Origin: Fischerella sp. CENA71
GTDB lineage: Bacteria > Cyanobacteriota > Cyanobacteriia > Cyanobacteriales > Nostocaceae
Direction: 5' to 3'
NCBI GenBank assembly: GCA_024239075.1
Contig: JANBVI010000036.1
Coordinates: 1-43,764, forward strand
DNA: 43,764 bases
Shown here: in pieces, positions 2,496 through 41,446 of the stretch
How the letters are laid out: each line of letters starts with the position of its first letter
Numbering within the stretch: position 1 is the stretch's first letter
Program-made: the position numbers and the translations under genes
The notes under the pieces: generated by a model
Seen by the model: the letters and a program-made list of their open reading frames with translations, nothing else
Told to the model about the DNA's origin: nothing
Databases searched by the model: none

Positions 2496-2496
2496 A
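2254..2496 (+). pseudogene. Inner group II intron RT, N-terminal fragment
   Basis: Starts MAINETNKVRQLQRSLY and contains KANQGAPGIDG, the conserved N-terminal signature of group II intron RTs, followed by IEAIVEAGEEAQMIQE. Similarity ends there and the frame stops a few codons later. The normal length is over 500 residues; about 80 remain. The ATG at 2254 is preferred over a TTG at 2248. Not functional. Confidence 0.8.
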
Positions 2497-2497
2497 C

Positions 2498-3080: not shown

Positions 3081-3087
3081 CTCAACC

Positions 3088-4177: not shown

Positions 4178-5157
4178 CAGTGAGACGAAAACTTAAGGAT
4201 ACCATTGCCAATAATGAAGAACTGAGCTTTGTCTTTGGGCAAAATAGTACTGAAAAAATTGTGCAAACAGCGTCAATTACCAAAGAACAAATCATTAACT
4301 GTAATGCAATAGTTTGCACATTTACATTTGTTCCAGATGGGAAGCCAGTTCGGCATTACTACGACACAGAAGACTTACGACAATGGGCTTTTTGTGATAT
4401 AAAACACAACGGAATTCGTTCCCCTTTGTGGATTCGTCCGCATCCAAGTCAACCTGAAAAATATGAATTGGTTGCAGGACTACGTCGTTTCAAAGCAGCG
4501 GCAATTTTAGGACTGGAAACTGTTCCAGTCAAGATTTTTGATTGGGATGACCATACCGCTTTCCATGCTGCAATATCGGAAAATACAAATCGTCGAGACT
4601 TCAGTGCTTTAGAAGAGTTAGATAATACTTTACGATTGCTTGAAATTCAATTGGGATATGACACAGAAGAAGTTGTCAGTTTTCTCTATCGTATGAACAA
4701 CGCAACAAAAAATACAACTAACCAAAATGTTTTGGTTAGCAAGGAAGCTGAACTAGTTCAAGAGATATTTAATTCATTCAGTCGAATCTCTTGGCAATCA
4801 TTCGTTGCTACTCGACTGCCCTTATTAAAAAAACCAGTAGAGGTTCTAGATGCAATTCGGCAGGGTAAAATTCATTACACTAAAGCTATTTTGATTGCTA
4901 GTATCAAAGATGAAAATATCAGACAAAGCTTTTTAGAAGAAGCTATCAAGCATTCCCTTAGTTTGTCCGAAATCAAACAGCGAGTTAAGGCATTCAATGA
5001 TAGTACAAAGACACTATCAGAATCTATAAGCCTTAAGCAACGCTTGACTAAAACAGTCCAGATAGCAAAGAAAAACAAAATACTTTGGAGTGATTCCAAT
5101 AAAACTCGGCAATTGGAGGAGTTGATTAGTCAGCTTGAAGCAATTGTCATGAGTTGA
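4174..5157 (+). CDS. parB: ParB/Spo0J-like partition protein
   Basis: A 327-residue protein with a ParB N-terminal (nuclease-fold/CTPase-like) domain: IRSPLWIRPHPSQPEKYELVAGLRRFKAAAILG, then AISENTNRRDFSALEELDNTL, the box preceding the DNA-binding helices. A helical region with a predicted HTH segment follows, then a basic C-terminus. It would bind a centromere-like parS site and stimulate ParA. Start codon ATG overlaps the parA stop, implying translational coupling. No parS could be identified by eye. Confidence 0.85.
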   Translation: MTVRRKLKDTIANNEELSFVFGQNSTEKIVQTASITKEQIINCNAIVCTFTFVPDGKPVRHYYDTEDLRQWAFCDIKHNGIRSPLWIRPHPSQPEKYELVAGLRRFKAAAILGLETVPVKIFDWDDHTAFHAAISENTNRRDFSALEELDNTLRLLEIQLGYDTEEVVSFLYRMNNATKNTTNQNVLVSKEAELVQEIFNSFSRISWQSFVATRLPLLKKPVEVLDAIRQGKIHYTKAILIASIKDENIRQSFLEEAIKHSLSLSEIKQRVKAFNDSTKTLSESISLKQRLTKTVQIAKKNKILWSDSNKTRQLEELISQLEAIVMS

Positions 5158-5212
5158 AAAAGAAGACAGTTTCTTTCTGTTGTTCATACTAGTACTCTGT
5201 CACAGTTAGGTC

Positions 5213-5324
5213 TAATGTGAATTAAGTCTCGAAACCCTTTTAATTTCGTTGATGGTCACAAAACAAGAATTTTTAATCGTCCTTGAAACCCTTATCGGAT
5301 AAGAGGCGTTTTTAATTCACATCA
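5213..5324. repeat. Inverted-repeat element downstream of parB
   Basis: ATGTGAATTAA (5215-5225) pairs with TTAATTCACAT (5312-5322); three flanking bases extend the match with one mismatch. A smaller palindrome CTTATCGGATAAG (5291-5303) lies near the right end. The size (about 110 bp) and the hairpin near one end resemble the type 1-3 repeats elsewhere, although the sequence differs. It separates the convergent parB and recD2-like genes and could act as a bidirectional terminator. Confidence 0.55.
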
Positions 5325-5424
5325 GGCATCAGCTTTCTGCATATATATATTGGACAAGTCCAGTGATTAATCGGTGTGGTGGCACAGCGCAAAGCTAAAC
5401 GAGGGGATGGGGTTTTACGCGCGA

Positions 5425-7689: not shown

Positions 7690-7772
7690 GGCACGCGGTC
7701 ATTATACTGAATAATTATCGCTTTTTATAGTACCTTTGTATTATTTTCCTGGAAGCGATCGCTCCTAATGTA

Positions 7773-7786
7773 GTACAATTGTACTG
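7773..7786. promoter_or_regulatory. Putative LexA (SOS) box upstream of recD2
   Basis: AGTACAATTGTACT is a perfect 14-base palindrome matching the cyanobacterial LexA consensus RGTACNNNDGTWCB. The neighbouring gene on the other side (7861-8127) is transcribed toward it, so only the recD2-like gene reads away from it. A HIP1 GCGATCGC lies just beside it. Regulation is inferred from motif and position only. Confidence 0.6.
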
Positions 7787-7860
7787 TAGATGGTGAAGTC
7801 GCCTTAGTCAAAACACTGATGTTGGATGCTTCCTTGTTTTTGCTGTCAGCATCTTTCTAT

Positions 7861-8127
7861 CTAATGCCGAACGGTTTCAAGCATTCCTATAAGAATGTCA
7901 TGTTGAGCAAACAAACCAAATATAAATTTATCTTGTATAGTTTTACCTTCAGGTACAACTAAGAACTCATCAGCAGCAGCAGAAGATAAAGGTGGTTGTC
8001 CATCTGTCAGAATAGCGTAATCAGTGCATTGTTCGTAAAGACGCTGAAGAATTTCTTCATCAGTTGGATCTAGTTTTCTTGCCATATAGGCAGTATTTTG
8101 CAATTCAAACCCGGTACAGATGTTCAT
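7861..8127 (-). pseudogene. GNAT acetyltransferase, N-terminal fragment
   Basis: The 88 residues match the first half of a cyanobacterial GNAT acetyltransferase (LYEQCTDYAILTDG, then GKTIQDKFIFGLFAQHDILIGMLETVRH). The frame stops exactly where the family continues with the acetyl-CoA-binding motif A, so the catalytic half is missing. Translation could start at the ATG at 8127 or at MARKLDP. It is presumably non-functional. Confidence 0.6.
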
Positions 8128-8338
8128 ATCTTTGCCTGTTGTGAGTTAGCTCCTCACTTCAAATTTACTTGCAAGTTGATATTGAGCCGAGATAGGCGGC
8201 AATGGCTGATTCTGCCCAATTGCGATCGCCACTTATTGATCGTGATCGCTCTATTCTGGGTTTTGCAGAAAATATGAGCAATCCCTTATCTTTTTTGTAT
8301 AAGTAATTCATTCTGGCAATCGCATTTGTTGTAAACAC

Positions 8339-8578
8339 CTATACATTGCCCTTTGAGCAATTGAGATCGTTGTGATTAGCTGTTGGCAATTGAATGATCT
8401 CAGAAAAACGTGAATACTTAACCGTATCGGTAGGAGGATAATCTGCCGACACTGCAATTAATCCAATTTTTGTATCCTCGAAATAAATCACACCCCCAAT
8501 ACGTCGTTCAGCTTGGAGAGGGCCATGAAAAAAATGATACTTTGCATTGGCGATCGCTTGTAGGCATGAATGATCCAC
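8339..8578 (-). pseudogene. Truncated paralogue of the 17014-17424 protein
   Basis: Residues from about 14 to 70 (FFHGPLQAERRIGGVIYFED, then IGLIAVSADYPPTDTVKYSRFSE) are nearly identical to the C-terminal half of the 136-residue protein at 17014-17424. The first 75 or so residues of the family are absent. The open frame start is therefore artificial. The two copies are in opposite orientation, 8.4 kb apart. Confidence 0.7.
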
Positions 8579-8958
8579 ATGGCTACAGAAATTTTACTCA
8601 ACAATTAAAACTCTTGTAATGATAAGCTTTTGAGTCTATGTAGGTATATTTGCAGGGGGAAGTCCAGCCTAAAAAATCCCCATTGCTGCCTCTGTCTTGG
8701 GTTATTTGTTCTTAGTCAATCCCTTTGAATGCGTCAGCTTCCGACCTATGTCTATGCTCTCACGCCCGTTTAATAAACTGGCGATCAATTGGAGATTGAA
8801 TAAGTAAACAAAATTAATCAATTAAAAAGAGAACTTAGGCTACCGTAGCTGGTTTAATAGATAAGCGATCGCGTCGGTCAACTTGTCTAGTCTACTCAGT
8901 ATAGTAATTTAGGTTTAGTATTCTTCCTTACCAATATCCCTGCATGGAGGTTTGCGTT
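8579..8958 (+). other. Gene-free stretch upstream of the DUF5996 gene
   Basis: No credible gene. From 8812 onward the sequence is repeated at 43530-43764, upstream of the second DUF5996 copy, and includes a HIP1 octamer within AAGCGATCGCGTCGG. The conserved 147-bp leader shared by the two copies probably holds the promoter. The ribosome binding site GGAGG at 8946-8950 is nine bases from the ATG at 8959. Confidence 0.5.
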
Positions 8959-9046
8959 ATGGTAGAACCTGTTCATGGCACACTCACTGATACCATTTGG
9001 CCCAGTCTGCCTGTTGCGAAATGGCAAGATACATATGCAACGCTGC
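8812..9046 (+). repeat. Direct repeat, copy 1 (partner 43530-43764)
   Basis: By eye, 235 bp align without gaps to 43530-43764 with about seven substitutions. The repeat covers the upstream region and first 88 bp of the DUF5996 gene. The second copy runs off the end of the window, so the full repeat is probably longer. The copies are 34.7 kb apart in the same orientation. Confidence 0.9.
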
Positions 9047-9912
9047 ATCTGTGGACTCAAATCATTGGTAAGATTCGGCTGGCGCTGGCTCCCAAACTTA
9101 ACCACTGGTGGCACTCTACACTTTATGTAACCCCACGTGGACTAACAACCTCTTCAATTGCTTACGAAGCACGCACCTTAGAGATTAGCTTTGACTTTCT
9201 TGAGCATCAGTTACAAATCGATACTAGCGACGGCATAAGGCGAACAATCGCGCTTGTTCCCCGCTCTGTAGCTGACTTCTACCAGGATGTTATGGGTACA
9301 CTCAGCGCAATTGACATCCCCGTTCGGATTTGGACAATGCCACAAGAACTAGACCAGCCAATTCCCTTTGAGCAAGATTATGTACATGCAGCTTATGATC
9401 CTCAGTACGCCCAGAGGTTTTGGCGGATTCTGGTGCAAGCAGATCGGGTCATGAAAGTATTTCGCTCACGTTTTATTGGTAAATCTAGCCCTGTACACTT
9501 TTTCTGGGGCAGCTTTGACTTGGCTGTTACCCGCTTCTCTGGGCGTCGCGCTCGGGAGCATCCAGGTGTAGTTCCCAACATGGCAGATTGGGTGACAAAA
9601 GAAGCTTACTCCCATGAAGTGAGCAGCTGTGGGTTTTGGCCTGGTGGTGGGGCAGTGGCAGAACCTGTTTTTTACTCCTATGCCTACCCAGAACCGGAGG
9701 GATTTAAAGACTACCCCATCCAGCCAAAGAAGGCATTTTATAGTTCCGATATGCGAGAGTTCATTTTGCCCTATGAAGCAGTGCGGCGAGCTGATCACCC
9801 AGATGCAGTACTCCTTACCTTTTTGCAGAGTACCTATGATGCAGCTGCAAATAGTGGAAATTGGGAGCGAGCAGCGTTGGAATCTACCTCACAACTTACA
9901 ATTGGTTTTTAG
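8959..9912 (+). CDS. DUF5996 family protein
   Basis: A 317-residue protein of the DUF5996 family, biochemical function unknown. Family features visible are WPSLPVAKWQDTYATLHLWTQIIGKIRL at the start, HWWHSTLYVTPRGLTT, FFWGSFDLAVTRFSGR, and the C-terminal FWPGGG and PAFYSY-like (PVFYSYAYPEP) blocks. No signal peptide or membrane segment. The ATG at 8959 is chosen over the in-frame ATG at 8944 because GGAGG lies at an ideal distance from 8959 and the earlier ATG overlaps it. A second, near-identical copy begins at 43677. Confidence 0.85.
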   Translation: MVEPVHGTLTDTIWPSLPVAKWQDTYATLHLWTQIIGKIRLALAPKLNHWWHSTLYVTPRGLTTSSIAYEARTLEISFDFLEHQLQIDTSDGIRRTIALVPRSVADFYQDVMGTLSAIDIPVRIWTMPQELDQPIPFEQDYVHAAYDPQYAQRFWRILVQADRVMKVFRSRFIGKSSPVHFFWGSFDLAVTRFSGRRAREHPGVVPNMADWVTKEAYSHEVSSCGFWPGGGAVAEPVFYSYAYPEPEGFKDYPIQPKKAFYSSDMREFILPYEAVRRADHPDAVLLTFLQSTYDAAANSGNWERAALESTSQLTIGF

Positions 9913-9985
9913 ACTATTAACTGACACTGTTAGTGAAATATATCTTAATAATTAAAAGCCTTATTATTCCGTAGGTTACGTAGAG

Positions 9986-11769: not shown

Positions 11770-11927
11770 TAATTGAACTGAGATTTTACTATGGCAAAAT
11801 CTCAAAGGAATTATACAAACTCAAATTGCTGCTTTTCGGAAAAGTTGCTTATACTTTTTAGTCTTGATTTTACGTAAAATAGAATAATTTTTTTAATATA
11901 ATTTTATATAAGTTCGTTTATTTGGAC

Positions 11928-12491
11928 TTAGTTTTGTGATAGCCACTCAATCACTTTTTCTACATTTTTATCGGGTGGAAATACAGGATAGAAAACCTTT
12001 TCAATTCGCCCGTCGAAGATGATAAGTGTTAACCTCTTAATTAAGGTCATCGACTCAATTTTAAAGGTTGGTAATTGTAACGCTCTAGTAAAAGCTAGTT
12101 CTAAATCACTCAACAATTCAAAGGGGAGGTGGAGCCGCTCAACTGCCTCTTGCTGATATTCTGGATTCTGTGTGCTGAGACCAAAAACCCCTGCACCAAG
12201 TGCTTGTAACTCTTGGTAATGGTTTCTAAATGTACAAGACTGCGGTGTACATCCCCTGGCTCCGGGAATTTCATTCCAGCCTTTAGGCGGGTCTTTGTCA
12301 GGTCTACCAGTGCGTGGATAGCAGTATACAACAGTTCTTCCAGTCAGAGTTGCTAAATCCACAATACGTCCGGCTGTTGAGATCAAGGGAACAGAAGGGA
12401 TTTGTATACCCAAAAGATGGTTACAAGCTCCATCATCAAAAGGTACTGGAAGATTTTGGGGTAACTCGTACAAATTATCCATTCTTGGCAT
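11928..12491 (-). CDS. Peroxiredoxin, PrxQ/redoxin-like
   Basis: A 187-residue thioredoxin-fold peroxidase. The block VVYCYPRTGRPDKDPPKGWNEIPGARGCTPQSCTF contains the peroxidatic and second cysteines (Cys81 and Cys86) with the GCTPQSC signature of a cyanobacterial peroxiredoxin group. It would reduce hydroperoxides using thioredoxin-type donors in the cytosol. Length is normal and the ends look natural. It is monocistronic, flanked by mobile DNA on both sides. MDNLYEL (12482) is a possible shorter start. Confidence 0.85.
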   Translation of the reverse strand: MPRMDNLYELPQNLPVPFDDGACNHLLGIQIPSVPLISTAGRIVDLATLTGRTVVYCYPRTGRPDKDPPKGWNEIPGARGCTPQSCTFRNHYQELQALGAGVFGLSTQNPEYQQEAVERLHLPFELLSDLELAFTRALQLPTFKIESMTLIKRLTLIIFDGRIEKVFYPVFPPDKNVEKVIEWLSQN

Positions 12492-12822
12492 GAGATTTTT
12501 CCTTTCCAGTATGTTTTTACTTTGCTGTACTATGCAAAAAGTTGGCTCTTTGTCAGTAGCGCTTTAGAGCGAGTCAGAAAATCCTGTTGCTTACTTTTTG
12601 TTTACTCGTGCTATTTTCCATAACTAAAAGTAATGATTAAGATTATCGCATTTCACCAAATTCCTTGATATCTTCCACTAACTCTCTGGTAAGTAGTAAA
12701 GCAAAAATATTTATACATTTAATGATATAGTATCTACTGGGAAATAAGATAAAAAGTAAAGGTGTAGGTGTGCGTTTTATTAGAGGATTAAGTTGAGAAA
12801 CTATCGGGATACTAGAAAGGAT

Positions 12823-15493: not shown

Positions 15494-15602
15494 TAAAATA
15501 TCGGTGCCCTCGCGTTCCGCCTGAAGGGCGGAACGCTCACCAATTCTTGGGTTGAGCCAAAGTATATTTGATAGGGCACCGATATTTTATTTTTTGGAGA
15601 TC
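15478..15602 (-). repeat. Hairpin repeat, type 1 copy C (best preserved)
   Basis: AATAAAATATCGGTGCCCT (15492-15510) and its exact complement (15573-15591) form a 19-bp outer stem. A GCGTTCCGCC/GGCGGAACGC hairpin lies next to one end. On the minus strand it reads in the same order as copies A and B: outer arm, CCCTATCAAATATA, spacer, GC hairpin, outer arm, then TTGGAAAGGCCTT. It supplies the stop codon of the exported protein gene. Confidence 0.85.
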
Positions 15603-15689
15603 CCCAACAAAATTCTTGATGGTTGTGTTGCTTCCTTCAAGGGGTGATCGCACCTCTGCAATCTTTGAAAGATTATAAGTACATGGACA

Positions 15690-15793
15690 TTAAAAAACAG
15701 CCAACCTTGGCACAGCCCCTAAAGGGCTGTGCCGCCCACAGCGACAGTCTTTGAGACAAATAGATAACTCATTCCCGTTGGCTGTTTTTTCAG
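15690..15793 (-). repeat. Hairpin repeat, type 2
   Basis: AAAAAACAGCCAAC and its complement GTTGGCTGTTTTTT bound about 100 bp. An internal perfect palindrome GGCACAGCCC/GGGCTGTGCC lies beside one end. Sequence differs from type 1 but the architecture (outer stem, 45-base spacer, GC hairpin, outer stem) is the same. The T-run on the plus strand could also terminate transcription. Confidence 0.75.
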
Positions 15794-15821
15794 GTGGATC
15801 TACTTACCGATTCAAATAGTT

Positions 15822-15970
15822 GGGCGGTTGTTGCTGTTGCTCGTCTTGGTGGCTACCTCGAACATTGAAGCAAAACACCCATTGGTATCCAGGTACTGTG
15901 GTCAGTTTCGTTAAAATTACATGAAAAGAGTGAAGGTTGGCAGCTTGCAAAAGAGACTTAACGGGAAAAG
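15822..15970 (+). pseudogene. Tn5-like (IS4 group) transposase C-terminal remnant
   Basis: Plus-strand translation gives VARLGGYLEH, a stop, then SKTPIGIQVLWSVSLKLHEK and SEGWQLAKET, nearly identical to the C-terminus of the transposase at 23363-24408. It ends with the same inverted-repeat end AGACTTAACGGGAAAAG (15954-15970). Only about 45 codons remain, with a premature stop. Confidence 0.85.
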
Positions 15971-16028
15971 TCACAGAAGATGACAAGTCCTTTAGAGGAT
16001 GTCTGAAAAGTAAAATTTATGCCAATCT

Positions 16029-16299
16029 GGCTTGGTGTTAGTAACGGAAAAATTTTGGTCGTTAGTGAGGTATCGGAATAAACTGTCCCATTTACGATGC
16101 TTGGCTGATCACCACTCAGAAGTCTGCAATAGCGGAAATTCGTTATTTGCGTTTAGGAGGGTCCCATTTTTGGCCTAATTTGGGACAGTTAAAGTTCATA
16201 AACAAGCATAGGAATAGAAAAAAGATGACCTCTAAAAGCCTTGAACTATAAGCTTCTCAGGCTTAACGACCAAAATTTTTCTGCTGCTAAAACTAAGCC
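16029..16299. mobile_element. 271-bp MITE with 37-bp imperfect inverted ends
   Basis: The left arm (16029-16065) and right arm (16263-16299) are complementary at about 30 of 37 positions, including a perfect GAAAAATTTTGGTCGTTA core. The interior contains a second inverted pair AACTGTCCCA/TGGGACAGTT and no gene. A solo copy of the right end occurs at 24805-24844. The parent transposon was not seen in the window. Confidence 0.7.
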
Positions 16300-16377
16300 A
16301 TGCTGTCCTCATAACAACAAGCGCAAAAAGCCGTAGCGATTGGATTAACACTAGTAAAGTAAATCTATCTGTAGTGC

Positions 16378-16653
16378 TTAAGGCGCTACTTTTTCTCGAA
16401 ACTGTTTACCAGCAGAAAATGCAGGCACTTTAATTGCTGGAATTTTGATTGTCTCCTTGGTTTTTGGGTTACGCCCTTCACGTTCGGAGCGTTCACGTCG
16501 CTCGAATGAGCCAAACCCGATTAGCGTTACCTTTTCCCCATTCGCTACAGCTTCGGTTACGACTTCTAAAAAAGCTGAGATGATTTCATCGGTTTGCTTT
16601 TTTGTGATGTTGGTCTTTGCTGCCACAGCATCTACTAATTCACTTTTGTTCAT
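16378..16653 (-). CDS. HU-family nucleoid DNA-binding protein
   Basis: A 91-residue histone-like protein: MNKSELVDAVAAKTNITKKQ, then VANGEKVTLIGFGSFERRERSEREGRNPKTKETIKIPAIKVPAFSAGKQF. The GFGSFE and GRNPKTGE-like motifs form the DNA-bending arms. The start at 16653 fits family length and has GAGG eight bases upstream; an in-frame ATG further upstream is rejected. HU compacts DNA and assists recombination, and small HU genes are common on plasmids. Confidence 0.92.
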   Translation of the reverse strand: MNKSELVDAVAAKTNITKKQTDEIISAFLEVVTEAVANGEKVTLIGFGSFERRERSEREGRNPKTKETIKIPAIKVPAFSAGKQFREKVAP

Positions 16654-17013
16654 AAATGACCTCAAAGCATTCAAACAAAGGAAATCTAACATCACTAACT
16701 CGTATTAGGAAAGGAAAAAACCAAGAAAAATCAAGCAATACATCAAACTTAACAATGCAACATCAGAGTTGGAAGATATTCGAGCAAGGCGATCACTGTT
16801 GATAATTTTTTGCTTGGATGCTTTATTATGGCTGTTGTCGGATTCAGCTAATACCATTGTCACACCAGCAACTCAACCTATTCGCAAACAACACAATTGC
16901 ACCCACCCACAACACTAAGGCAGAAAGGTTCTAGAGGCTGTGGAATTTTACCATTGCTTAATCAATGACTAAATAATGCTGTCTGCTCGTCCCATCTCAT
17001 CAATATTCAAACT

Positions 17014-17424
17014 ATGAACATCGACAGATTACAGTCACTCAAGCAAAAATTAACGAATGAGGCAGACTTATCCAATATATGGTTGTTTTACATGGATCAT
17101 TTTGCGGATTATGCAGAATTTACCGATCTGGGTGAGCCTACCTATAATGAATACCTAGATGCTATTATTCACAAAACTTGTGAGCAAATCTTTGGCAGAG
17201 CAGTCAAAATTACTGACTTTTTGCCAATCTACATTGCAGAGTATGGTTTTTTTCATGCCCCTTTCCAAGCTGAACGATGTATTGGAGGTGTGATTTATTT
17301 CGAGGATTTAAAAGTTGGGTTAATTGCAGTGTCGGCAGATTATCCTCCTACTGATGCGGTTAAGTACTCACGTTTTTCTGAGGTGCAACAAGAACCAACA
17401 CCTAATCGCAACGATCTTAACTGA
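17014..17424 (+). CDS. Conserved hypothetical protein, 136 residues
   Basis: A small acidic-to-neutral soluble protein (MNIDRLQSLKQKLTNEADLSNIWLFYMDHFADYAEFTDLG, later QAERCIGGVIYFEDLKVGLIAVSADYPPTDAVKYSRFSE). No function recognised. A truncated paralogue is at 8339-8578, so at least two family members were present. Its stop codon lies four bases before the end of the ISH3-type IS. No membrane segment or signal peptide. Confidence 0.7.
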   Translation: MNIDRLQSLKQKLTNEADLSNIWLFYMDHFADYAEFTDLGEPTYNEYLDAIIHKTCEQIFGRAVKITDFLPIYIAEYGFFHAPFQAERCIGGVIYFEDLKVGLIAVSADYPPTDAVKYSRFSEVQQEPTPNRNDLN

Positions 17425-17428
17425 GATT

Positions 17429-18885
17429 CAGTAGATCACAAACTTTTCCCAAAAGGGCGATCGCCAATAAATTAACCAGTATATCTAAGTATTACAAACT
17501 ACTTAATCTATATAGAAAACTTATCATTGTCTAAACAGTTTCAATAGGTGAAATAATGAAAGTCTTGCGTATCATTTTGTTAAAATAATTGACTGTTTCA
17601 TTAGAACAACTGGCTATAACAGATACAGAAACTCTAGACGAAGTTCTTAAGTGCTTGGCAGAAAACTTTTCAATTAACACTCAAGGTGCATGTGATCAAA
17701 AAACTCTATTTGAGATCAAGCGTGAGAGCAGCAAGTAATGGAGACACTATTGAGAATACAGCGAAAACGTTAAAAAAAATTCCATCTGGGAATGATATTA
17801 GATATCATCTTAACAAAATCAATGATTTTGAAGACTTAGAAAGACAAATTAATCAAGCTTTAAAAAGTCGGCTTCCAAAAGGAATTAAGAATGGATACCT
17901 AAAACTAGCAATTGATTTAAATTTAATTCCTTATTATGGCAAGCCTAGTTACAACGAATTACCTTATATATATCGCAGTCAAGCAAAATCTGGGACTTGT
18001 TCTTTCTATGCCTATGCAACTTTATATGTTTTAATGAAAGGAAAACGTGTAACTCTTGCGATTAGAGGCGTTAGATGGATAGATACAAGTGTTGCTATTA
18101 TTACTTATCTGTTAGCAGAACTTGATGCACTTCATATTCAAGTAAAACAACTTTACCTTGATAGAGGATTTTTTAACGTTCCTGTCATTCGGTGGCTACA
18201 AGCTTTAGATATCCCTTTGCTCATGCCAGCAATAAAAACCGGAAAGCAAGGAGGAATTAAACAGTTTTTAAAAGGGAGAAAAAGTTACAAGACCACATAT
18301 ACTATGACCAGGAACGGAAATAAAAATGATTCTGTTACCTTTGAATTATGGATTGTTTGTAAATATAAAAAAGGTAAACGGCATCAAAAGGGGGTCGAAT
18401 ACTTTGCCTATGTGGTTCATAAGGTAAAAACGAATTTATCTTCTATCCATCAAGATTATAGAAAAAGATTTGGAATAGAAAGTAGTTACAGGCTCAAAAA
18501 TATCTGCCGAATCAGAACAACAAATAAAAAACCAGTTTTAAGATTATTATTCGTTGGTATCTCTTTTATTCTAGTCAATATATGGGTTAACCTTTTATGG
18601 CTTAAAATCAGCCGCAAAAGAAAGGGTAGAAGATTAATTTATCGTTGATTATTTAGTCTCAAACAGATGCTAGCCTTCTTGCGTCAAGCTGTTGATAAAA
18701 TACATGAAGTTATTGAACGTATTTATATTCCATCAGGTTAACTTTTATAAACTCAGTTGCTACCTTTTTATAAGGGATTCTTATCACTACTCCCTTACTT
18801 GCTTAATACTCCAACTGATAAAAAGTATCATTGACTACAAAGCTTACAGATCATTGCCCTTTAGGAAAAAGTTTGTGATCTACTG
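17429..18885 (+). mobile_element. ISH3-type insertion sequence, nearly complete
   Basis: CAGTAGATCACAAACTTTT at the left (17429) and the complementary AAAGTTTGTGATCTACTG at the right (ending 18885) bound a 1,457-bp element. A 5'-end copy in the same orientation is at 35140-35643. The right edge cuts a pRiA4b ORF-3-like gene. Flanking bases do not show an obvious duplication. Confidence 0.8.
17586..18740 (+). pseudogene. ISH3-family transposase, frameshifted and with a stop near the end
   Basis: The N-terminal part (LEQLAITDTETLDEVLKCLAENFSI) lies in one frame to about 17730. The main frame, from 17686, continues VRAASNGDTIENTAKTLKKIPSGNDIRYHL, with DDE-type blocks LAIDLNLIPYYG, LYLDRGFF and FGIESSYRLKN, until TGA at 18646-18648. 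The same frame then reads LFSLKQMLAFLRQAVDKIHEVIERIY to 18740. The copy at 35140 has the same 5' frame change, so that shift may be programmed (+1). The late TGA is probably a mutation. Confidence 0.75.
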
Positions 18886-19065
18886 ACCGTGGATGATGAA
18901 ATGATGGAGGTGAATATCTTCCCACCCCATTGCCAACTGAATCGTGTAATGCAAATCTTCTATTGTGCTATCGCTGCTGACTTTTATACGCCGCCAAATC
19001 ATCGGGCTGATGCTCAACAGCACCACTTTTAATTGATATATGACTCTTTCCGTAGAATTGAACAT
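18886..19065 (-). pseudogene. pRiA4b ORF-3-like protein, N-terminal fragment
   Basis: The frame encodes VIYQLKVVLLSISPMIWRRIKV, then TIEDLHYTIQLAMGWEDIHLHHFII, the N-terminal signature of the plasmid pRiA4b ORF-3 family, often found beside IS elements and on plasmids. The remaining two thirds are replaced by the IS right end at 18885. Function of the family is unknown. Confidence 0.75.
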
Positions 19066-19119
19066 TGAGCCATCTTATCGTGTTGTGTCCCTCATCTCCC
19101 CCGAAATTTTTCGCTCTCC

Positions 19120-19260
19120 ATGAGTACGCCGAACCAGCCTACGTATAGGCGGTTGTCGGTGCTTGTTACCCAGTTACAAAAGCGATCCCATACGTTGGCG
19201 CTCTGGCGCTGTTGGATGGTTGCTGTCATTGTTCTTATGATTGCGGTTAATTGTTTATGA
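19120..19260 (+). CDS. Possible 46-residue membrane peptide
   Basis: [20 protein letters not shown] is followed by a basic segment and the hydrophobic [15 protein letters not shown], suggesting a single C-terminal membrane helix. No family recognised and no convincing ribosome binding site. It could be the N-terminus of a broken gene. Reported at low confidence because of its tail-anchor-like design. Confidence 0.25.
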
Positions 19261-19502
19261 ATGAATCAGGCGAGTTGTCTTTGCCTGTAATAATAACTTT
19301 ACATTGCTTTACAAAAATTAATCAAGCTACTTAACTTTTATAAAGACAATATCAACTATAGGCAAAACTTATTTATACAGTTAGTTATCAGTTACCAGGT
19401 TATAGCTGGGTATTAAACTTGCCACCAAAACCTGGCACGCCTTTGTATGGGACTTATTAAAACTGATAACTGACAACTGATAACTGTTCACTGAATTTAA
19501 AG
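19261..19502 (+). repeat. Leader of the pyr gene with CTGATAACTG-type repeats
   Basis: No gene. CTGATAACTGACAACTGATAACTG-like tandem units near 19470-19493 face a complementary AGTTATCAGTTAC segment at about 19384-19396, so a long stem with an approximately 75-base loop could form just upstream of the start at 19503. Such TGATAACTG repeats are common in cyanobacterial intergenic DNA. Confidence 0.5.
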
Positions 19503-20541
19503 ATGAACTTTTTTAACAAGTTAGAGGCGGCGATAGCCCGTAACCAGAGCCTACTATTTGTAGGACTTGACCCCAATCCAGAGATGATGCCTACCCACTA
19601 CAACAGTACTGGAAATGACATTATTTGTGGCTTACGGGACTGGATACAATTTGTGATTACCCAAACAGCTGATCTTGTCTGTTTTAGCTCTTGTGCGATC
19701 GCAAGCGAGCGAACGACTGATTATGGCTCGGAGCATTTGGCAAGAAAACACCGACTTGAACCAATTTTTGAGTGCTGGACTAAATGCAAACGGTGAAGGT
19801 TTACTCATCCCTGTTCCTCAAGATTGGTTGAGTCGTGAAAACCCAAACCAGCCAATCCGCGCTTTACGCGATCAAATCAATCAAACCAGAAACCAGATTA
19901 TCAGTTCTGCTTCCACTTGTGACCTGTGGCTATCCGATGTCTGCACGTTGAATACTCATCCCCATTTAGACTTAATTTTGCAACTCTACGACATTGGTTG
20001 TATTCTGTTTGGCAATTTTGTCCAAGCTTCAGGAGCAACATTCCCTTATTATATTGATCTACGTAAGGTGATTTCTAATCCCCAAATCTTCCATAAAATC
20101 TTAAATGTTTATGCCGAGATTCTCAAAGACCTGAGTTTTGACCGGATTGCAGGTATTCCTTATGGCTCTTTACCTACTGCGACTGGCTTAGCACTACGTC
20201 TGAATTATCCAATGATTTTTCCTCGCAAGGAAGTCAAGGCACACGGAACACGACGAGTGATTGAGGGAAACTTTCAGCCAGGAGAAACAATTGTTGTCGT
20301 TGATGATATTCTCATCAGTGGCAAAAGTGCGATCGAAGGGGCAGAAAAAATTAAGTCTATTGGCTTACAATTTCAGGATATTGTGGTGTTTCTGGATCAT
20401 GAACAAGGGGTTAAAGATAGACTGCAAGATCATGGCTATCGAGCGCATTCAGTTCTGACTATTTCTGAGATCACACAAACGCTACACCAAGCAGGTCGCA
20501 TTAATGACGAGCAATTTCAGATTCTCGCTCAAACTTCCTAG
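19503..20541 (+). pseudogene. Fused OMP decarboxylase/orotate phosphoribosyltransferase, decarboxylase part deleted
   Basis: The first frame (MNFFNKLEAAIARNQSLLFVGLDPNPEMMPTHYN to about residue 59) is the start of OMP decarboxylase. It breaks near 19680 into another frame that resumes near the decarboxylase C-terminus (IMARSIWQENTDLNQFLSAGLNANGEGLLIPVPQDWL). The lysine/aspartate catalytic region is lost. The orotate phosphoribosyltransferase domain is complete, with the PRPP loop VVVDDILISGKSAIEG. An ATG at 19675 could still give a 288-residue protein with only this activity. Whether it is expressed cannot be told. Confidence 0.8.
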
Positions 20542-35139: not shown

Positions 35140-35643
35140 CAGTAGATCACAAACTTTTTCCCAAAGGGCGATCGCCAACAAATTCATCAGTATATATAGG
35201 TTCTATATGCTACTTAATGTATCAATAAAAATTATCATTTTTTTAACAGTTTCAAGAAGTGAAATAATGAAAGTGTTGTGTATCATTTTGTTAAAATAAT
35301 TGACTTTTTTGTTAGAACAACTGGCTATAACAGAGACAGAAACTCTAGACGAAGTTATTAAGTGTTTAGCAGAAAATTTCTCAATTAAAACCCAAGGTGC
35401 ATGTGATCAAAAAACTTTATTTGAGATCAAGCGTGAGAGCAGCAAGCAATGGGGATACTATTGAGAATACAGCCAAAACGTTGAAGAAAATCCCATCGGA
35501 AAATGATATTAGATATCATCTCAACAAAATTAATGATTTTGAAGATTTAGAGAGACAAATTAATCAAGCTTTCAAAAGTCGAGTTCCGAGAGGAATTAAA
35601 AACGGACACCTAAAGTTAGCTATTGATTTAAACTTAATTCCTT
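35140..35643 (+). mobile_element. ISH3-type IS, 5' fragment
   Basis: Starts with CAGTAGATCACAAACTTTTT like the element at 17429 and is closely similar to it for about 500 bp, through the same frame change and LAIDLNLIP, where homology ends at about 35643. Transposase remainder and right end are absent. Same orientation as the full copy 17.7 kb away, which would allow recombination. Confidence 0.85.
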
Positions 35644-35844
35644 GTTCCTGAACGGAGTAATTGCTTTGAGAGCGTTCTTAAAACTCCTGGGTTCTCATCC
35701 AAGAAACAACAAGCTTTTATAATCCTGATTGCAAAAAAAATTGTCCTCTCAGCAATACTAATATTTATATTTGCTATCATGTTTCTAGTTGTAATCAATT
35801 ATTAATTATTCTCTCATATCCAATTTAAAAATATAGTTTTGATT

Positions 35845-36530: not shown

Positions 36531-36925
36531 AACTGTTTAGTTTGCACTTAGTGACAGCTTCGCCAGATCTTCCCCAATATCCAGCATTTTGCTAGAAGAT
36601 ATTTTCAGATTAAAACATTTTTTGTTAACTGTCTTAACTGTCTAAAAATTATTTCTTAACTGTCTTAACTGTCCTTGTATTCTTCTGAAAATTGTGAAAT
36701 ATTAGAATTCTTAAGTGCGCTTCTGATAAATTTCAAGGCACTCCCATTTCTCACACTCATCAAGCTAATCGCTTTAAGTAAGCTACTATGTGTGCTACTG
36801 CAACACTATTGCATACTATGCTGAACCTTAAAATTAAAACTTTTGTGTGTCCGTTGTCTTTTGCATTCACACGAAAGAAAAAGACTACTCAGGTTCAAAA
36901 TTTAGTAATTTAAAGGGTTGGATTT
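36531..36925 (+). promoter_or_regulatory. Leader region of the putative biosynthetic operon with direct repeats
   Basis: TTAACTGTCTTAACTGTC occurs twice (36625-36642 and 36656-36673), itself a dimer of TTAACTGTC, giving four nine-base units spaced 9, 22 and 9 bp apart (helical-phase-like). They lie about 250 bp upstream of the first small ORF. This could be an activator-binding array. No clear -10/-35 pair was seen. No other gene in the stretch. Confidence 0.4.
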
Positions 36926-37030
36926 ATGACAGCCACAAGCTCTACCACAGGAACACTATTTAGACTCGATCCACTGTCAGTTGTTCAGTCTATGCAAGCC
37001 CTGGGTGATAGCTTACTGCTTTTTTTGTGA
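36926..37030 (+). CDS. 34-residue leader peptide ORF
   Basis: MTATSSTTGTLFRLDPLSVV followed by QSMQALGDSLLLFL and a stop, 22 bp before the next gene. AAAGGG lies about eight bases upstream of the ATG. It has a Thr/Ser-rich head and hydrophobic tail. It could be a regulatory leader, a small precursor peptide, or the remnant of a larger gene; no cysteines. Not recognised. Confidence 0.35.
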   Translation: MTATSSTTGTLFRLDPLSVVQSMQALGDSLLLFL

Positions 37031-37052
37031 GGAATCAGGAGACAAAAATCAA

Positions 37053-38183
37053 GTGAAAATTTTTGAAACCACATTGCGTGACGGAGAACAAGCGGCGTTT
37101 ATTCATCTTGAACCCAGGCAGAAAGCTGATATTGCAGTCTCACTAGAAGCGATGGGTGTTGATATTATTGATGCTGGATTCCCCGTCGCCTCAAAGCTTG
37201 ATTGGGAGGGTGCTTATGCAATAGCTGATGCCACCAATAAAGTCCAGTTAAGCGTCTTGGCTAGACATATGCCAGAGGACATTAAAGCAGCCTACAGTGC
37301 GGTAAAACACCATATTGACCGCTCTAGGTTGACGACATGGGTTATGCCCTATGAATTATACACTCGCCATACGAATGACCCTGATATCTACAAAAGGATC
37401 GTAGATTCATCGCGTCAGGCAGTGAAATATGGGCGAGATATTTTTCCGGCTGTACAGTATTATCTGGTTTATAGTGGCAACCGAGACAAGTATTTTTTGA
37501 GTGAATTGGTTGGCGAAGTAGTGGATGCTGGTGCAACCTGCATAGCAATTGCGGATAGTCAGAGTACGATGAATCCAAATAGTCTGGCATCTTTGGTAAC
37601 TTTCATCAAACAGAGCTTGCCAGCAAGTATCGACATATCTGTTCATTGCCATAACAATATGGGGCTTGCCCTTGCCAATACTGTGGCAGCAATTAATGCT
37701 GGTGCCAATCAGGTAGAAGCAACTATTGGCGGAATGGGTGATGCTGGTGGAAATACATCACTTGAACAAATTCTGGCATATGCCAGTTATTTTGAGAAAG
37801 ATAATCCCTTATTTGACTGTGGCTGCCGTCTTGACAGCCTTTACAAGATTGCCTGTGAAGTGAGTAAACTGACTGGTTTCCAGTATGCATCAAATCAACC
37901 ATTTGTTGGTCCAGACACTTTTACTGTTGAAACAGGCATACACCATTCACTTGCTCAAAACATTCAAAACAGCACATTTAATCCGAAAGTTATTGGTCGT
38001 AATATTACGTCTATTGTCGGAAGACACAGTGGACTTGCGGGATTACGTGAAAAACTACAAGAGATTGGTGTAGATACTTCGTCCATAAATTTTCATATTC
38101 TTTACTCAAGAGTTATGGAAGTTTCACAAGCAGTAGGTACAGTATCTAACGATACGCTACTTGAGTTAGTCAAGGAGATGTAA
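37053..38183 (+). CDS. Isopropylmalate/homocitrate synthase-like enzyme (HMGL-like)
   Basis: A 376-residue DRE-TIM metallolyase. FETTLRDGEQAAF (residues 4-16) holds the RDxEQ catalytic and metal-binding set; VHCHNNMGLALANTVAAINAGANQVEATIGGMGDAGGN (about 197-234) has the HxH metal ligands (His198, His200) and the glycine-rich block of the family. It ends without the LeuA regulatory domain, like NifV or re-citrate synthases. GTG start at 37053, GGAG 12 bases upstream. Such enzymes join an acyl-CoA to a 2-oxo acid. The location beside a loading module makes a role in specialised metabolism more likely than leucine or homocitrate synthesis. Confidence 0.85.
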   Translation: MKIFETTLRDGEQAAFIHLEPRQKADIAVSLEAMGVDIIDAGFPVASKLDWEGAYAIADATNKVQLSVLARHMPEDIKAAYSAVKHHIDRSRLTTWVMPYELYTRHTNDPDIYKRIVDSSRQAVKYGRDIFPAVQYYLVYSGNRDKYFLSELVGEVVDAGATCIAIADSQSTMNPNSLASLVTFIKQSLPASIDISVHCHNNMGLALANTVAAINAGANQVEATIGGMGDAGGNTSLEQILAYASYFEKDNPLFDCGCRLDSLYKIACEVSKLTGFQYASNQPFVGPDTFTVETGIHHSLAQNIQNSTFNPKVIGRNITSIVGRHSGLAGLREKLQEIGVDTSSINFHILYSRVMEVSQAVGTVSNDTLLELVKEM

Positions 38184-38187
38184 GACA

Positions 38188-38823
38188 TTGAATGTCACTG
38201 TTATTAAATATGGCGATGAAGCACTTTTAGAAATCAAACGGCACCTTAGCGAAGGACAGCCTGTTGTCTTACCTAACCCTTCTCCCTTGCCATATGTTGT
38301 AGTGGCTGTTTCTCCAATCATTATCAATAGCCTCAAACGTAGGTCGCTCGACCAAAATGTGGCTTCTTTTATCGGAAGGTTCGAGACTGTGAAACAATAT
38401 TTCAATCTCGATCAATACGGTATGGAAATAGCTGAAAAATGTCTTGTGGAAAACAAAATGACTGTGCTGTGTCCAGTCAAGAACGATATTGAGATGCCGA
38501 CATTCTTTCTACCCTCTCTGAAAAATAATCATGTTCTGTTGTTTGCTACCCATTTGCCTGGATTACAGCAGCTATGCGTTGAGTTTCCTTCACTGTATGT
38601 CAGTAGCGGAAACGTAACAAAAATGGAGCCACAACAATTTTGCACAGATGTGCAAACTCAGTTCAAAGAATTTGGAAACCCTGAATTTAAATTGCTTCTA
38701 GTAGATGGAGATCATTTACGAGACAGACATCAGCGTCACGGCTCAACAACAATGGTTATGATCTCGCCTACTGGCAACCTTTCTATTACGCGTAAGGGCA
38801 TACAGCCGCTACACCTGGAATAA
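38188..38823 (+). CDS. YrdC/Sua5-like protein
   Basis: A 211-residue protein with YrdC/Sua5-type features: KRHLSEGQPVVLPNPSPLPYVV at the start (nucleotide-site loop position), IIINSLKRRSLDQNVASFIG (KRR motif) and HGSTTMVMISPTGNLSITRKG near the end. Canonical members make threonylcarbamoyl-AMP; this one is divergent, so another carbamoyl- or acyl-adenylate reaction is possible. TTG start with AGGAGA inside the end of the preceding gene, five bases after its stop, so translation is coupled. Confidence 0.55.
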   Translation: MNVTVIKYGDEALLEIKRHLSEGQPVVLPNPSPLPYVVVAVSPIIINSLKRRSLDQNVASFIGRFETVKQYFNLDQYGMEIAEKCLVENKMTVLCPVKNDIEMPTFFLPSLKNNHVLLFATHLPGLQQLCVEFPSLYVSSGNVTKMEPQQFCTDVQTQFKEFGNPEFKLLLVDGDHLRDRHQRHGSTTMVMISPTGNLSITRKGIQPLHLE

Positions 38824-38926
38824 CAAATAAAAATGTATTGACATTAACCTCTAAGTTGCATTTCAGGATGTAGTACATCTTTTAATTAACTTGTCAAAAC
38901 TTCAAAAATTTGTTTGGAGAAAAATT

Positions 38927-41446
38927 ATGTTAGAAACTATTAATACATATAACAATGGGTTTGTAGCTATTCCAGTTATTGTCGCCTGTAAAAAAAGAGG
39001 TTTTTTCAACTTGCTTGCTCGTGAAACATCTCTCTGTTGTGAGCAAATGAGTGAACAACTTAAAGCCAATAGTGGACATTTCCAGGTTGCTTTGAGGATG
39101 CTTGAATCTCTACATTGGCTTTCTCGAAACGAGCAAGAAAAATACTCTTTGACTCCAGAAGCTGCCAATCATCAGGAAATTCCAGAAGATGTCCTTCAAT
39201 TGTATCAACTACCAATAGAATCATACTTGCAAGGTAAACAGCCAGATTTGCTCGGAAAGTGGATTGAGTACTCTTGTCAACGATGGAATACAGATAACCT
39301 CTTAATTGCCGATTTTTTAGATGGAATCCTAGTTATTCCTCTATTACTGGCACTTCATAAGCACAATTTGTTTGAGAACTCCCAAACAAAACCTTTGTTC
39401 TCCTCACTAAGTTCTCCGATTCAAAAAGATTTAATTAAGTTATTTACTAACCTTGGTTGGATTGAGCTTTTTAAAACAGGTCATTTTACCTTTACTAAAC
39501 TGGGCGAGTTTATTAAGGAGCGAGCTTTGAATACTGCCATAGTCGCTTCTTATACTCCTATGTTATCTCGGATGGATGACGTATTGTTCGGGGATTGTCT
39601 TTCAGTATTCCAAAGGGATGCTTTTGGGCAAGAAAGCCACATTGATCGTAATCTTAATGTCATTGGCAGCGGATTTCAACACCACAAGTATTTTACCGAC
39701 CTCGAACAAAGCATTCTCTCAATCTTCAATCGGTTTCCCTTGGCAGAACAGCCTAAATATATTGCCGATATGGGGTGTGGCGATGGAACTCTCCTAAAAC
39801 GTGTGTGGGAAACTATTCGCTTCTCTTCTGCTAGAGGCAAAGCGATAGAAGAATATCCCTTATTGTTGATTGGAGTAGATTATAACGAAGCTTCTTTAAC
39901 AGCCAGTGCCAGAACTCTTGCTGACCTTCCTCATATAGTTCTGCACGGAGATATTGGGCAGCCGGAACAAATGGTAGAAGATTTAAAGGCTCATGGAATT
40001 TACGACCCAGAGAATATTCTGCATATTCGCTCATTCCTCGACCACGATCGCCCCTTTATCTCGCCTCAGAAAACAGAGCAACTAGAAATTCGCCAACACA
40101 TCCCCTATCAGGGAGTCTATGTTGATCGCTCTGGCGCATCTATTCCTGCTTATATTATGATACAAAGCTTGGTAGAACATTTAGAAAAATGGGCTTCTTT
40201 AGCTACCAAGCATGGTTTAATTGTTCTGGAAGTTCACTGTTTGGAACCGCAGATAGTTCACCAATTTCTCAACAAAAGTGAAAACTTGCATTTCGATGCT
40301 GTTCAAGGATTTTCCAAACAATATCTTATAGAAGCCGAAGTTTTTCTTATGTCAGCGGCGGAAGCTGGTCTATTTCCAAAATCAAATTTTTCGGTAAAAT
40401 ACCCGAAAACTTTCCCTTTTACTCGAATTACCCTCAATTACTTTGAAAACAGACCCTACAAAATTCGTCATCCACGTTTATCAGATATGCCTGCTTTAAT
40501 CAACTTAGAAACCCAGTGTTGGCCAGAGCATTTACGAGCGTCTGCTGATGACATTCAACACAGAATTGAACGTTACCCAAACGGGCATCTAGTTGTAGTT
40601 TGGGATGAGCAAATTGTAGCTGTGATGTATTCTCAAAGGATTATCAACGATGCAATTCTACAAAACACGACTTACCAGCAAGTGCCGTTGCTCCACAATC
40701 CGCAGGGAACAGTCATCCAATTGCTAGGCATAAATGTTCTGCCCGAATTTCAGGAACGAGGACTGGGCGATCAATTGCGCGAGTTTATGCTTCTATACTG
40801 CACCCTAAGAGGCGGCATTGAAAGTGTAGTAGGTATAACCCGTTGTAAAAAATATGTTAGTCACTCTCATCTACCAATTGCAGAATACCTTCAACTGCGA
40901 AATGAGCAAGGTCAGCTTTTAGATCCCATTGTGCGATTCCACGAGTTGGGAGGAGCCAAAATTAAAGGAATCATCCCCAACTATCGTCCAGAAGATACGG
41001 ATAATCTAGGAACGGGAATTTTAATTGAATATAATTTGCAAACACGCCAAAGCAAATCTACTGAATCAGCAATTAACGATAACTTTTTAAGTCTAAAAAG
41101 CTGGACAGATTCATCTTTAATTGAAGAAACGCCAAATACAAAGTCTCAATCAATAGAAAATGAAGCTTTACGAGATATCGTTGAAAAATGTATCTCTCAG
41201 ATTATGGGTTCTCAATATCAAGCAGTTTATACAAGCTCCAAAAAGCTTGCAGATATGGGATTAGACTCCCTAGATTTATTGGAACTTCAAGCCCTACTAG
41301 AAAAACGTTTAAATGTGCAACTCGATTCTAACTTTTTTTGGCAGTATGATACTCCAAACAATATCGTAAGTTTCTTCAATAAAAATATCAACTCGATTGT
41401 GAGAGAACCGACAGCATCAGGACGAAAATTAGGCTTTACTGAATGA
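38927..41446 (+). CDS. Methyltransferase-GNAT-acyl carrier protein (SxtA1-A3-like loading module)
   Basis: An 839-residue three-domain protein. Residues ~1-500: methyltransferase of the SxtA1/AprA-MT1 type (MLETINTYNNGFVAIPVIVA, SGHFQVALRMLESLHWLSRN; SAM motif IADMGCGDGTLL 279-290; HIRSFLDHDRPF from His366, the metal-ligand region in AprA). ~510-690: GNAT-like domain (RHPRLSDMPALINLE; LGINVLPEFQERGLGDQL, 600-617), which in this class decarboxylates acyl-ACP. ~755-815: acyl carrier protein, DMGLDSLDLLEL with Ser781 as phosphopantetheine site. ATG 38927 is chosen because GGAGA precedes it; a TTG at 38891 is less likely. The SxtA4 aminotransferase is missing: the end (SGRKLGFTE) resembles its first residues, so it may have been cut off. 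Confidence 0.88.
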   Translation: MLETINTYNNGFVAIPVIVACKKRGFFNLLARETSLCCEQMSEQLKANSGHFQVALRMLESLHWLSRNEQEKYSLTPEAANHQEIPEDVLQLYQLPIESYLQGKQPDLLGKWIEYSCQRWNTDNLLIADFLDGILVIPLLLALHKHNLFENSQTKPLFSSLSSPIQKDLIKLFTNLGWIELFKTGHFTFTKLGEFIKERALNTAIVASYTPMLSRMDDVLFGDCLSVFQRDAFGQESHIDRNLNVIGSGFQHHKYFTDLEQSILSIFNRFPLAEQPKYIADMGCGDGTLLKRVWETIRFSSARGKAIEEYPLLLIGVDYNEASLTASARTLADLPHIVLHGDIGQPEQMVEDLKAHGIYDPENILHIRSFLDHDRPFISPQKTEQLEIRQHIPYQGVYVDRSGASIPAYIMIQSLVEHLEKWASLATKHGLIVLEVHCLEPQIVHQFLNKSENLHFDAVQGFSKQYLIEAEVFLMSAAEAGLFPKSNFSVKYPKTFPFTRITLNYFENRPYKIRHPRLSDMPALINLETQCWPEHLRASADDIQHRIERYPNGHLVVVWDEQIVAVMYSQRIINDAILQNTTYQQVPLLHNPQGTVIQLLGINVLPEFQERGLGDQLREFMLLYCTLRGGIESVVGITRCKKYVSHSHLPIAEYLQLRNEQGQLLDPIVRFHELGGAKIKGIIPNYRPEDTDNLGTGILIEYNLQTRQSKSTESAINDNFLSLKSWTDSSLIEETPNTKSQSIENEALRDIVEKCISQIMGSQYQAVYTSSKKLADMGLDSLDLLELQALLEKRLNVQLDSNFFWQYDTPNNIVSFFNKNINSIVREPTASGRKLGFTE

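Follow-up and report, generated by a model that had tools for sequence, protein, structure and literature searches.

A compact cyanobacterial cassette that places an SxtA/AprA-like protein beside an HMGL-like enzyme and a YrdC-like protein

Introduction

Which reaction is served by an SxtA/AprA-like protein, made up of a methyltransferase, a GNAT domain and an acyl carrier protein (ACP), when its partners are an HMGL-like enzyme and a YrdC-like protein instead of an aminotransferase? The question is raised by a contig of Fischerella sp. CENA71 (JANBVI010000036.1), which was analysed over its whole 43.8 kb, called the window here, and is one of the 95 contigs (C36) of a 7.47 Mb genome. Three long open reading frames (ORFs) lie together on its + strand within 4.4 kb (37053-41446), in the order HMGL-like gene, YrdC-like gene and SxtA/AprA-like gene. 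We refer to this compact set as the cassette and collect its coordinates in Table 1. Composition, linkage, movement, selection and residue pattern are computational results; the reaction and its product we infer from sequence and gene linkage. Our answer is a tentative one, held with less than even confidence: the cassette may be a small specialised-metabolite unit in which propionyl-ACP from the SxtA-like protein would feed a non-canonical carbon-carbon bond formation by the HMGL-like enzyme and an ATP-using YrdC-like protein. In either case an SxtA-type starter enzyme is seen here joined to partners other than a pyridoxal phosphate (PLP) domain.

Conservation and horizontal movement of the trio

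A pattern scan for the HMGL-like gene in the species-genome collection, which detects close relatives only, returned six loci. Three of these were close relatives, namely Fischerella PCC 9431 (L019), Scytonema NIES-4073 (L020) and Phormidium LEGE 05292 (L021; L025 of G486 is the same contig and was not counted twice). An earlier reading of the window from its letters alone (the original prediction) had proposed looking for the same gene order in other cyanobacteria, and the full trio was indeed found in identical order in all four loci with a close HMGL-like gene, the window included. Identity of the orthologues in the three relatives to the window proteins is 88-93% for the HMGL-like (84-92% in the pattern scan), 83-87% for the YrdC-like and 86-89% for the SxtA-like protein, and the cassette DNA is 87-90% like that of the window. 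The likeness fades within 36 bp 5′ of the HMGL start and within about 30 bp or less 3′ of the third stop codon, and comparison of the flanks of the four loci gave no additional gene common to all. Two further loci returned as HMGL relatives, L022 and L023, were set aside, since they look by eye like an oxovalerate-aldolase-type gene and a yeast-type LeuA gene; the YrdC-like profile found nothing in the L022 genome.

The cassette is rare. The YrdC-like protein was present in 1 of 388 genomes in a class sample, 2 of 388 in an order sample and 1 of 386 in a phylum sample, where the samples overlap and every one contains the window's own genome. Within the genus, the YrdC-like gene of genome G1261 occupies the position that it has in the Fischerella PCC 9431 genome (G915), and Pfam did not see the gene in three of the four other same-genus genomes (G1258-G1260), with a model so insensitive that it missed the window's own copy. 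A search of viral contigs gave no match.

On comparing the four strains, the synonymous divergence (dS) of the three cassette genes was 0.25-0.65, while for LeuA the value was 0.29 inside the genus and rose to 1.3-1.85 when families were compared, with saturation in one pair. In the HMGL-like gene the two Fischerella-genus cassettes (dS of 0.32) stand no nearer to one another than to the Scytonema cassette (0.34 and 0.25). Since the cassette dS is far under that of LeuA between families, the cassette has moved horizontally between lineages as a unit. The ratio of non-synonymous to synonymous divergence (dN/dS) was 0.11-0.23 across all three genes, and these are therefore under selection and are not chance frames.

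The HMGL-like enzyme lacks two contacting active-site residues

The first protein of the cassette matches Pfam PF00682 with an E value of 1.2e-55. Its best PDB match is BjMAMS (6e1j), and its closest NCBIfam models are those of isopropylmalate synthase (IPMS), with carboxylases scoring far lower. Yet it fails the LeuA/IPMS family cut-offs (273.1 vs 532 and 252.1 vs 598.7 bits) as well as that for the homocitrate synthase NifV (187 vs 462.9 bits), and its 376 residues stop where LeuA models run about 120 positions further. The genome has its own NifV (541.5 bits) and a LeuA-like gene elsewhere. In the tree the cassette protein is on a long stem, and its position beside LeuA is unsafe (support of 80/90, with long branches flagged). 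Scores below the cut-offs, the long stem and the separate LeuA-like and NifV genes together rule out a housekeeping LeuA or NifV, a grouping that the original prediction had named as one that would tell against it.

In BjMAMS the metal is bound by D90, H288 and H290 and the 2-oxo acid by R89 and T257, while Glu227 hydrogen-bonds Tyr399, which in turn stacks on the base His388 (excerpts of PMC11532901). By sequence alignment, not structure, the residues R89, D90, Q93, H288 and H290 are kept while Glu227 and Tyr399 are lost in all 11 examined HMGL-like proteins that are paired with a YrdC-like gene (4 cyanobacterial and 7 from Streptomyces, see below). The four cassette proteins have V or I at position 227, S at 257 and N at 399 and keep His388 under three alignment settings; the seven Streptomyces proteins have A or V at 227, F at 399 and P at 388. 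Both Glu227 and Tyr399 are kept in 6 of 6 HMGL paralogues examined from the window genome. As to the samples, paralogue L007 was out of the tree and of the first active-site alignment and is in the final residue comparison. Of the Streptomyces loci, L039 and L041 were out of the first active-site alignment and L043 out of that and the tree, and the broken loci L044 and L045 were out of the tree, the YrdC-like alignment and both HMGL residue alignments.

That all 11 proteins have lost both members of this contacting pair argues for a chemistry that is altered around a retained 2-oxo-acid site. Also, the variants E227A, E227D and Y399S of BjMAMS2A had undetectable activity (excerpts of PMC11532901), and a plain acetyl-CoA Claisen reaction is thus less likely for the cassette enzyme. 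The original prediction of an HMGL-like enzyme holds in so far as the family is concerned; its description as a plain carbon-carbon-forming condensing enzyme cannot be taken at face value with Glu227 and Tyr399 gone.

Occurrence of the HMGL/YrdC pair in Streptomyces

A search of plasmids with the YrdC-like protein gave 17 Streptomyces records, 16 of which are S. clavuligerus, and in the two plasmid regions that were read (L026 and L027) the YrdC-like gene overlaps the end of an annotated 2-isopropylmalate synthase gene. The YrdC-like profile matched 8 of 150 genomes of Streptomyces, the genus of L022 (genome G914). One of the eight matches coincides in its coordinates with the NBC_01276 locus; each of the remaining seven has an HMGL homologue (57-84% to the first two) adjoining the YrdC-like gene on the same strand. 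The two genes are therefore same-strand neighbours in 9 of the 9 Streptomyces loci that were examined, and in two of the seven (L044 and L045) they appear broken. A tblastn search with the methyltransferase-GNAT-ACP protein gave no match in these seven loci, which span 12-20 kb each, and the annotation of the other two regions shows no such gene. When sampling was widened to the phylum of G914, the YrdC-like profile matched 0 of 198 genomes, a zero that carries no information for want of a positive control. An MFS gene lies beside the pair in three loci (L026 and L027, where it is upstream, and L040; part of the neighbours was scanned), and in L041 a SAM methyltransferase gene (11879-12745) is divergent from the pair.

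As the pair occurs in Streptomyces without the methyltransferase-GNAT-ACP gene, it looks like the older core, and the SxtA-like protein like a later partner. We consider it very probable that the HMGL-like and YrdC-like proteins act in one pathway. Their presence side by side in Streptomyces too points to an undescribed small-molecule pathway, and the retention in two phyla of a pair whose HMGL-like enzyme is devoid of two residues in contact at the active site speaks for a reaction that departs from the usual isopropylmalate scheme.

Residues of the YrdC-like protein

The KxR...SxN tetrad (K50, R52, S140 and N142) is invariant in all 11 YrdC-like proteins aligned, and sub-threshold matches to PF01300 recur (E values of 1.8e-4 for L042, 7.9e-4 for a same-genus genome and 0.03 for P0005, with none for P0006). 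The Streptomyces relatives are 28-33% identical to the window protein. On the other side of the comparison, the PTDT loop, which lies at the threonine site and reads PTDTV in 11 of 11 PF01300 proteins of the relatives, is replaced by LPNPxPL. The tetrad has been tied to ATP binding in the YrdC family, of which TsaC/Sua5 use ATP and bicarbonate and HypF/TobZ use carbamoyl phosphate and ATP (excerpts of PMC9654439 and PMC10321239). The kept tetrad and the replaced loop fit an enzyme that uses ATP but acts on something other than threonine. The YrdC-like label given earlier agrees with the tetrad and a weak PF01300 similarity, and fails at the Pfam cut-off and at the PTDT loop. In contrast to TsaC/Sua5, HypF and TobZ, the protein has an HMGL-like neighbour, and no adjoining Kae1-like gene was seen. 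The window genome holds three other PF01300 members that score above the cut-off.

Domains and likely product of the SxtA/AprA-like protein

The third protein has the Pfam domains AprA_N, WH_AprA, Methyltransf_36, Acetyltransf_1 and PP-binding, where Acetyltransf_1 reaches 19.5 bits against a cut-off of 20.7 and the GNAT is clear from the PDB match. Among PDB entries it matches 7uci/7ucl best, with 1153 bits across residues 12-718 (numbered in the TTG version); these entries are entitled 'Polyketide synthase-related protein', and we take them to be the methyltransferase-GNAT structure of SxtA. AprA 6b39 (621.6 bits), the CurA GNAT 2ree (226.6 bits) and GphF 6mfc (142.5 bits) follow with lower scores. 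The assignment to the SxtA/AprA type made in the original prediction is upheld by these domains and the 7uci match. The protein resembles the N-terminal part of SxtA in its order of AprA_N, winged helix, C-methyltransferase, GNAT and ACP, the last with the motif GLDSL, but ends after the ACP with no PLP, ketosynthase or thioesterase domain by Pfam. It thus differs from SxtA in having no C-terminal aminotransferase-like PLP domain, and from the AprA, CurA and GphF loading parts, which have the same domains, in not being fused to a polyketide synthase (PKS). In a relative in L011 (66% identical) the ACP is followed by an aminotransferase class I/II domain, as in SxtA. The aminotransferase was correctly said to be missing, also in that none was found among the ORFs near the cassette that were scanned with Pfam, a scan that covered part of the window ORFs.

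Four residues of the CurA GNAT that we take to be its decarboxylation set (Trp249, Thr355, His389 and Arg404, with spacings that match the 2ree alignment) are kept as W532, T638, H672 and R687 of the 839-residue protein and are invariant in 4 of 4 orthologues. In the column that we suppose to control methylation, chosen by eye, 7uci has Ile, AprA has Thr and the four cassette proteins have Ile or Val; elsewhere a V of the cassette protein stands against F in 7uci and H in 7ucl. SxtA makes methylmalonyl-ACP, and a change of an active-site Ile to Thr, as in AprA, permits a second methylation (excerpts of PMC10784701); that this Ile is the one in our column is inferred from one sentence. With the GNAT residues kept and the methylation column Ile or Val rather than Thr, propionyl-ACP made from malonyl-ACP is the product that we would expect, with somewhat more confidence than doubt.

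Proposed pathway and alternative explanations

In the pathway that we tentatively favour, the ACP of the SxtA-like protein would carry malonyl, to which the methyltransferase would add one methyl group before the GNAT decarboxylates it to propionyl-ACP, a sequence of events supported by homology. Because no PLP, ketosynthase or thioesterase domain follows, the acyl-ACP would be used in trans by the HMGL/YrdC pair. The Arg/Asp/His/His metal site of the HMGL-like enzyme would take up a 2-oxo acid, and the enzyme would make a carbon-carbon bond without the usual Glu-Tyr-His-assisted enolisation of acetyl-CoA; for such a non-canonical bond formation on a 2-oxo acid we see about as much chance as against it. 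The YrdC-like protein would use ATP to adenylate a carboxylate or carbamate, as TsaC, HypF and TobZ do, that is the substrate or the product of the HMGL-like enzyme. Adenylation of a carboxylate or carbamate is a proposal on which we are evenly divided. The pair would carry the core reaction, as the same two enzyme kinds occur in Streptomyces without an SxtA-like protein, and the latter would provide cyanobacteria with a special acyl donor. The output would likely be a branched dicarboxylic acid of the hydroxy or oxo type, or else such an acid in activated or cyclised form. The cystargolide and belactosin beta-lactone pathways are a useful model for the proposed order of steps, in that an isopropylmalate-type acid is followed there by ATP-dependent adenylation of a carboxylate; their adenylating enzyme is, by contrast, unrelated to the YrdC-like protein, and no methyltransferase-GNAT-ACP protein is mentioned in the excerpts of the source (PMC11427300).

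Several points weigh against this proposal. The YrdC-like protein is below the Pfam gathering cut-off for PF01300 (Sua5_yciO_yrdC; E of 4.5e-4, 20.2 vs 25.1 bits) and below the NCBIfam cut-offs as well. An hhalign comparison with 11 PF01300 proteins of the relatives is in register but weak (probability 66.7%, E of 5.3e-5), PDB searches gave no more than one chance match (E of 1, with its profile), and its structure prediction reached a mean pLDDT of only 41.3; a second prediction reached 45.8, and the alignments had four rows. That it would act on the substrate or product of the HMGL-like enzyme we read from the gene pairing. The single methylation is drawn from one column picked by eye. The SxtA-like gene, at 103-233 nt from its neighbour, could be transcribed alone. 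Also, HMGL identity between the two phyla is only about 25% and the Streptomyces enzymes lose His388 too, so the cyanobacterial and Streptomyces pairs may differ in chemistry. Lastly, the BjMAMS2A variants E227Q and Y399F retained weak activity (excerpts of PMC11532901), and the loss of Glu227 and Tyr399 is therefore not enough on its own to dismiss the usual reaction.

These weakly active variants also speak for an ordinary alkylmalate synthase, in which the HMGL-like enzyme would join propionyl-ACP or propionyl-CoA to a 2-oxo acid in the way LeuA uses acetyl-CoA, the YrdC-like protein being a tailoring enzyme. The HMGL fold with IPMS and BjMAMS as its top matches, and the fact that all four cyanobacterial proteins retain the metal site and His388, agree with this explanation, which we judge unlikely and yet deserving of serious weight: Glu227 is V or I and Tyr399 is N in 4 of 4 cassettes, the E227A, E227D and Y399S variants were inactive to detection, and the Streptomyces pair has no adjoining acyl-ACP gene.

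It is doubtful that the SxtA-like protein is a starter supplier, handing ACP-bound propionyl to a distant nonribosomal peptide synthetase (NRPS) or PKS while the HMGL/YrdC genes make a second precursor. AprA-type proteins do start PKS lines, L012 holds a relative with a fused ketosynthase, and an NRPS gene lies 5′ of the cassette in L019; but the only other window ORF above 400 residues (754 residues) is by eye RecD-like, L020 and L021 have as their longest ORFs ones that are by eye of WD40 type, and no megasynthase is common to the four loci, a comparison that covered the loci themselves.

Rather improbable is an ATP-driven, biotin-free chemistry, whereby the YrdC-like protein makes a carbamoyl- or carboxy-adenylate that is attacked by a metal-bound 2-oxo-acid enolate of the HMGL-like enzyme. 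The two would then be halves of one carbon-carbon-forming enzyme likened to the carboxylase-like branch of the HMGL superfamily, with the propionyl-ACP donor as a cyanobacterial extension. Such a scheme would suit the KxR/SxN tetrad shared with TsaC/Sua5 and HypF/TobZ, the loss of acetyl-CoA-related parts around a kept 2-oxo-acid metal site and the presence of the pair in two phyla. However, the closest HMGL models are IPMS, with carboxylases far below, propionyl-ACP is left without a clear role, and we know of no precedent. That the cassette is a decayed fragment of a larger SxtA-type cluster, kept by chance among the several transposase genes and fragments of the contig, is very improbable given the dN/dS values, the ORFs open in four genomes and the kept key residues.

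Returning to the proposed specialised-metabolite cassette, each part is, or resembles, a member of a known family, and no description of the combination of HMGL-like, YrdC-like and SxtA-like proteins was found in the open-licence literature searched. The words isopropylmalate, GNAT and apratoxin are absent from the main text of PMC4558948, a genome-mining study that includes Fischerella PCC 9431. The new pathway held possible in the original prediction is in keeping with this, as the conserved trio matched no known pathway, and its gene order was tied to no known product, in the searches made. The 4.4 kb cassette looks self-contained, and its product would be directly testable in a laboratory host. 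The isopropylmalate genes of the portoamide cluster of Phormidium LEGE 05292, a synthase with its dehydratase and dehydrogenase (excerpts of PMC13252402), were considered and set aside, as ORFs of that set were not seen by eye beside the cassette in L021. A defence-system protein was likewise ruled out, there being no PADLOC match.

Gene layout, flanking DNA and neighbouring genes

The HMGL-like gene had been started at TTG 36981. This was replaced by GTG 37053, the most likely start, because ATG stands at that place in 3 of 3 orthologues. The HMGL and YrdC-like genes are coupled, as the HMGL stop ends at 38183 and the YrdC-like TTG follows at 38188 after a 4 bp gap. The ATG of the third gene lies 103 nt past the YrdC-like gene here and 181, 233 and 218 nt past it in the three relatives. 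Of the four tight frames proposed earlier, the three ORFs and the HMGL/YrdC coupling therefore stand, while the fourth frame, of 34 residues, is not conserved and the third gene is not tightly spaced. DNA likeness upstream reaches only to 37017 in Fischerella PCC 9431 and 37039 in Scytonema NIES-4073, and Phormidium LEGE 05292 is uninformative on this short ORF, its upstream side being interrupted by an IS605-type gene. The 34-residue ORF is probably not part of the cassette, and as a precursor peptide it was ruled out for want of conservation. In a promoter and terminator scan, promoter-like sites were not above shuffled sequence.

Table 1. Positions of the cassette genes and nearby features in the window, with the evidence used.
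Feature	Position	Strand	Size and start	Evidence
HMGL-like (DRE-TIM) enzyme, distantly of isopropylmalate/homocitrate-synthase type	37053..38183	+	376 aa from GTG	Pfam, PDB, orthologues, active-site columns
YrdC-like protein	38188..38823	+	211 aa from TTG	sub-threshold Pfam, orthologues, Streptomyces relatives, hhalign
SxtA/AprA-like protein	38927..41446	+	839 aa	Pfam, PDB 7uci, GNAT residues, orthologues
AAGGAG ribosome-binding-like site, inside the HMGL 3′ end and 5′ of the YrdC-like TTG	38172..38177	+		sequence itself
ORF, unconserved	36927..37031	+	34 aa	DNA comparison with the Fischerella PCC 9431 and Scytonema NIES-4073 loci

Around the cassette, L020 and L021 have a common upstream stretch of 266 bp (91%) and both hold a weakly similar AAA-type gene, and WD40 genes recur around the loci. 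In L021 an OrfB_IS605 gene (8623-9915) lies directly 5′ of the cassette and separates the HMGL-like gene from the 266-bp stretch. A repeat of about 50 bp (88-94%) is found 5′ of the cassette in the window (36654-36704), L019 (9911-9962) and L021 (8228-8279), with an inverted copy 3′ of it in L021 (15989-16038). As this repeat is dispersed in the genome (9 matches), it is probably a common repeat and not an end of the cassette.

Beside the cassette of L019, genes for Trp-halogenase-like, NAPRTase-like and methionyl-tRNA-synthetase-like proteins stand in a row on the opposite strand (15536-20513), a row absent from the other cassette loci compared. On its 5′ side (2003-9715) the NRPS gene, with condensation, AMP-binding, PP-binding and thioesterase domains, is followed by a LanM-type gene (DUF4135 and LANC_like). 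The window itself may be a plasmid, because ParA-like and ParB-like genes (3473-5157) are found on this 43.8 kb contig together with several transposase genes. One of these, a DDE transposase gene, lies at 17686-18648, and just 5′ of the cassette, at 35397-35651, its N-terminal part is seen by eye to recur as a nearly identical fragment.

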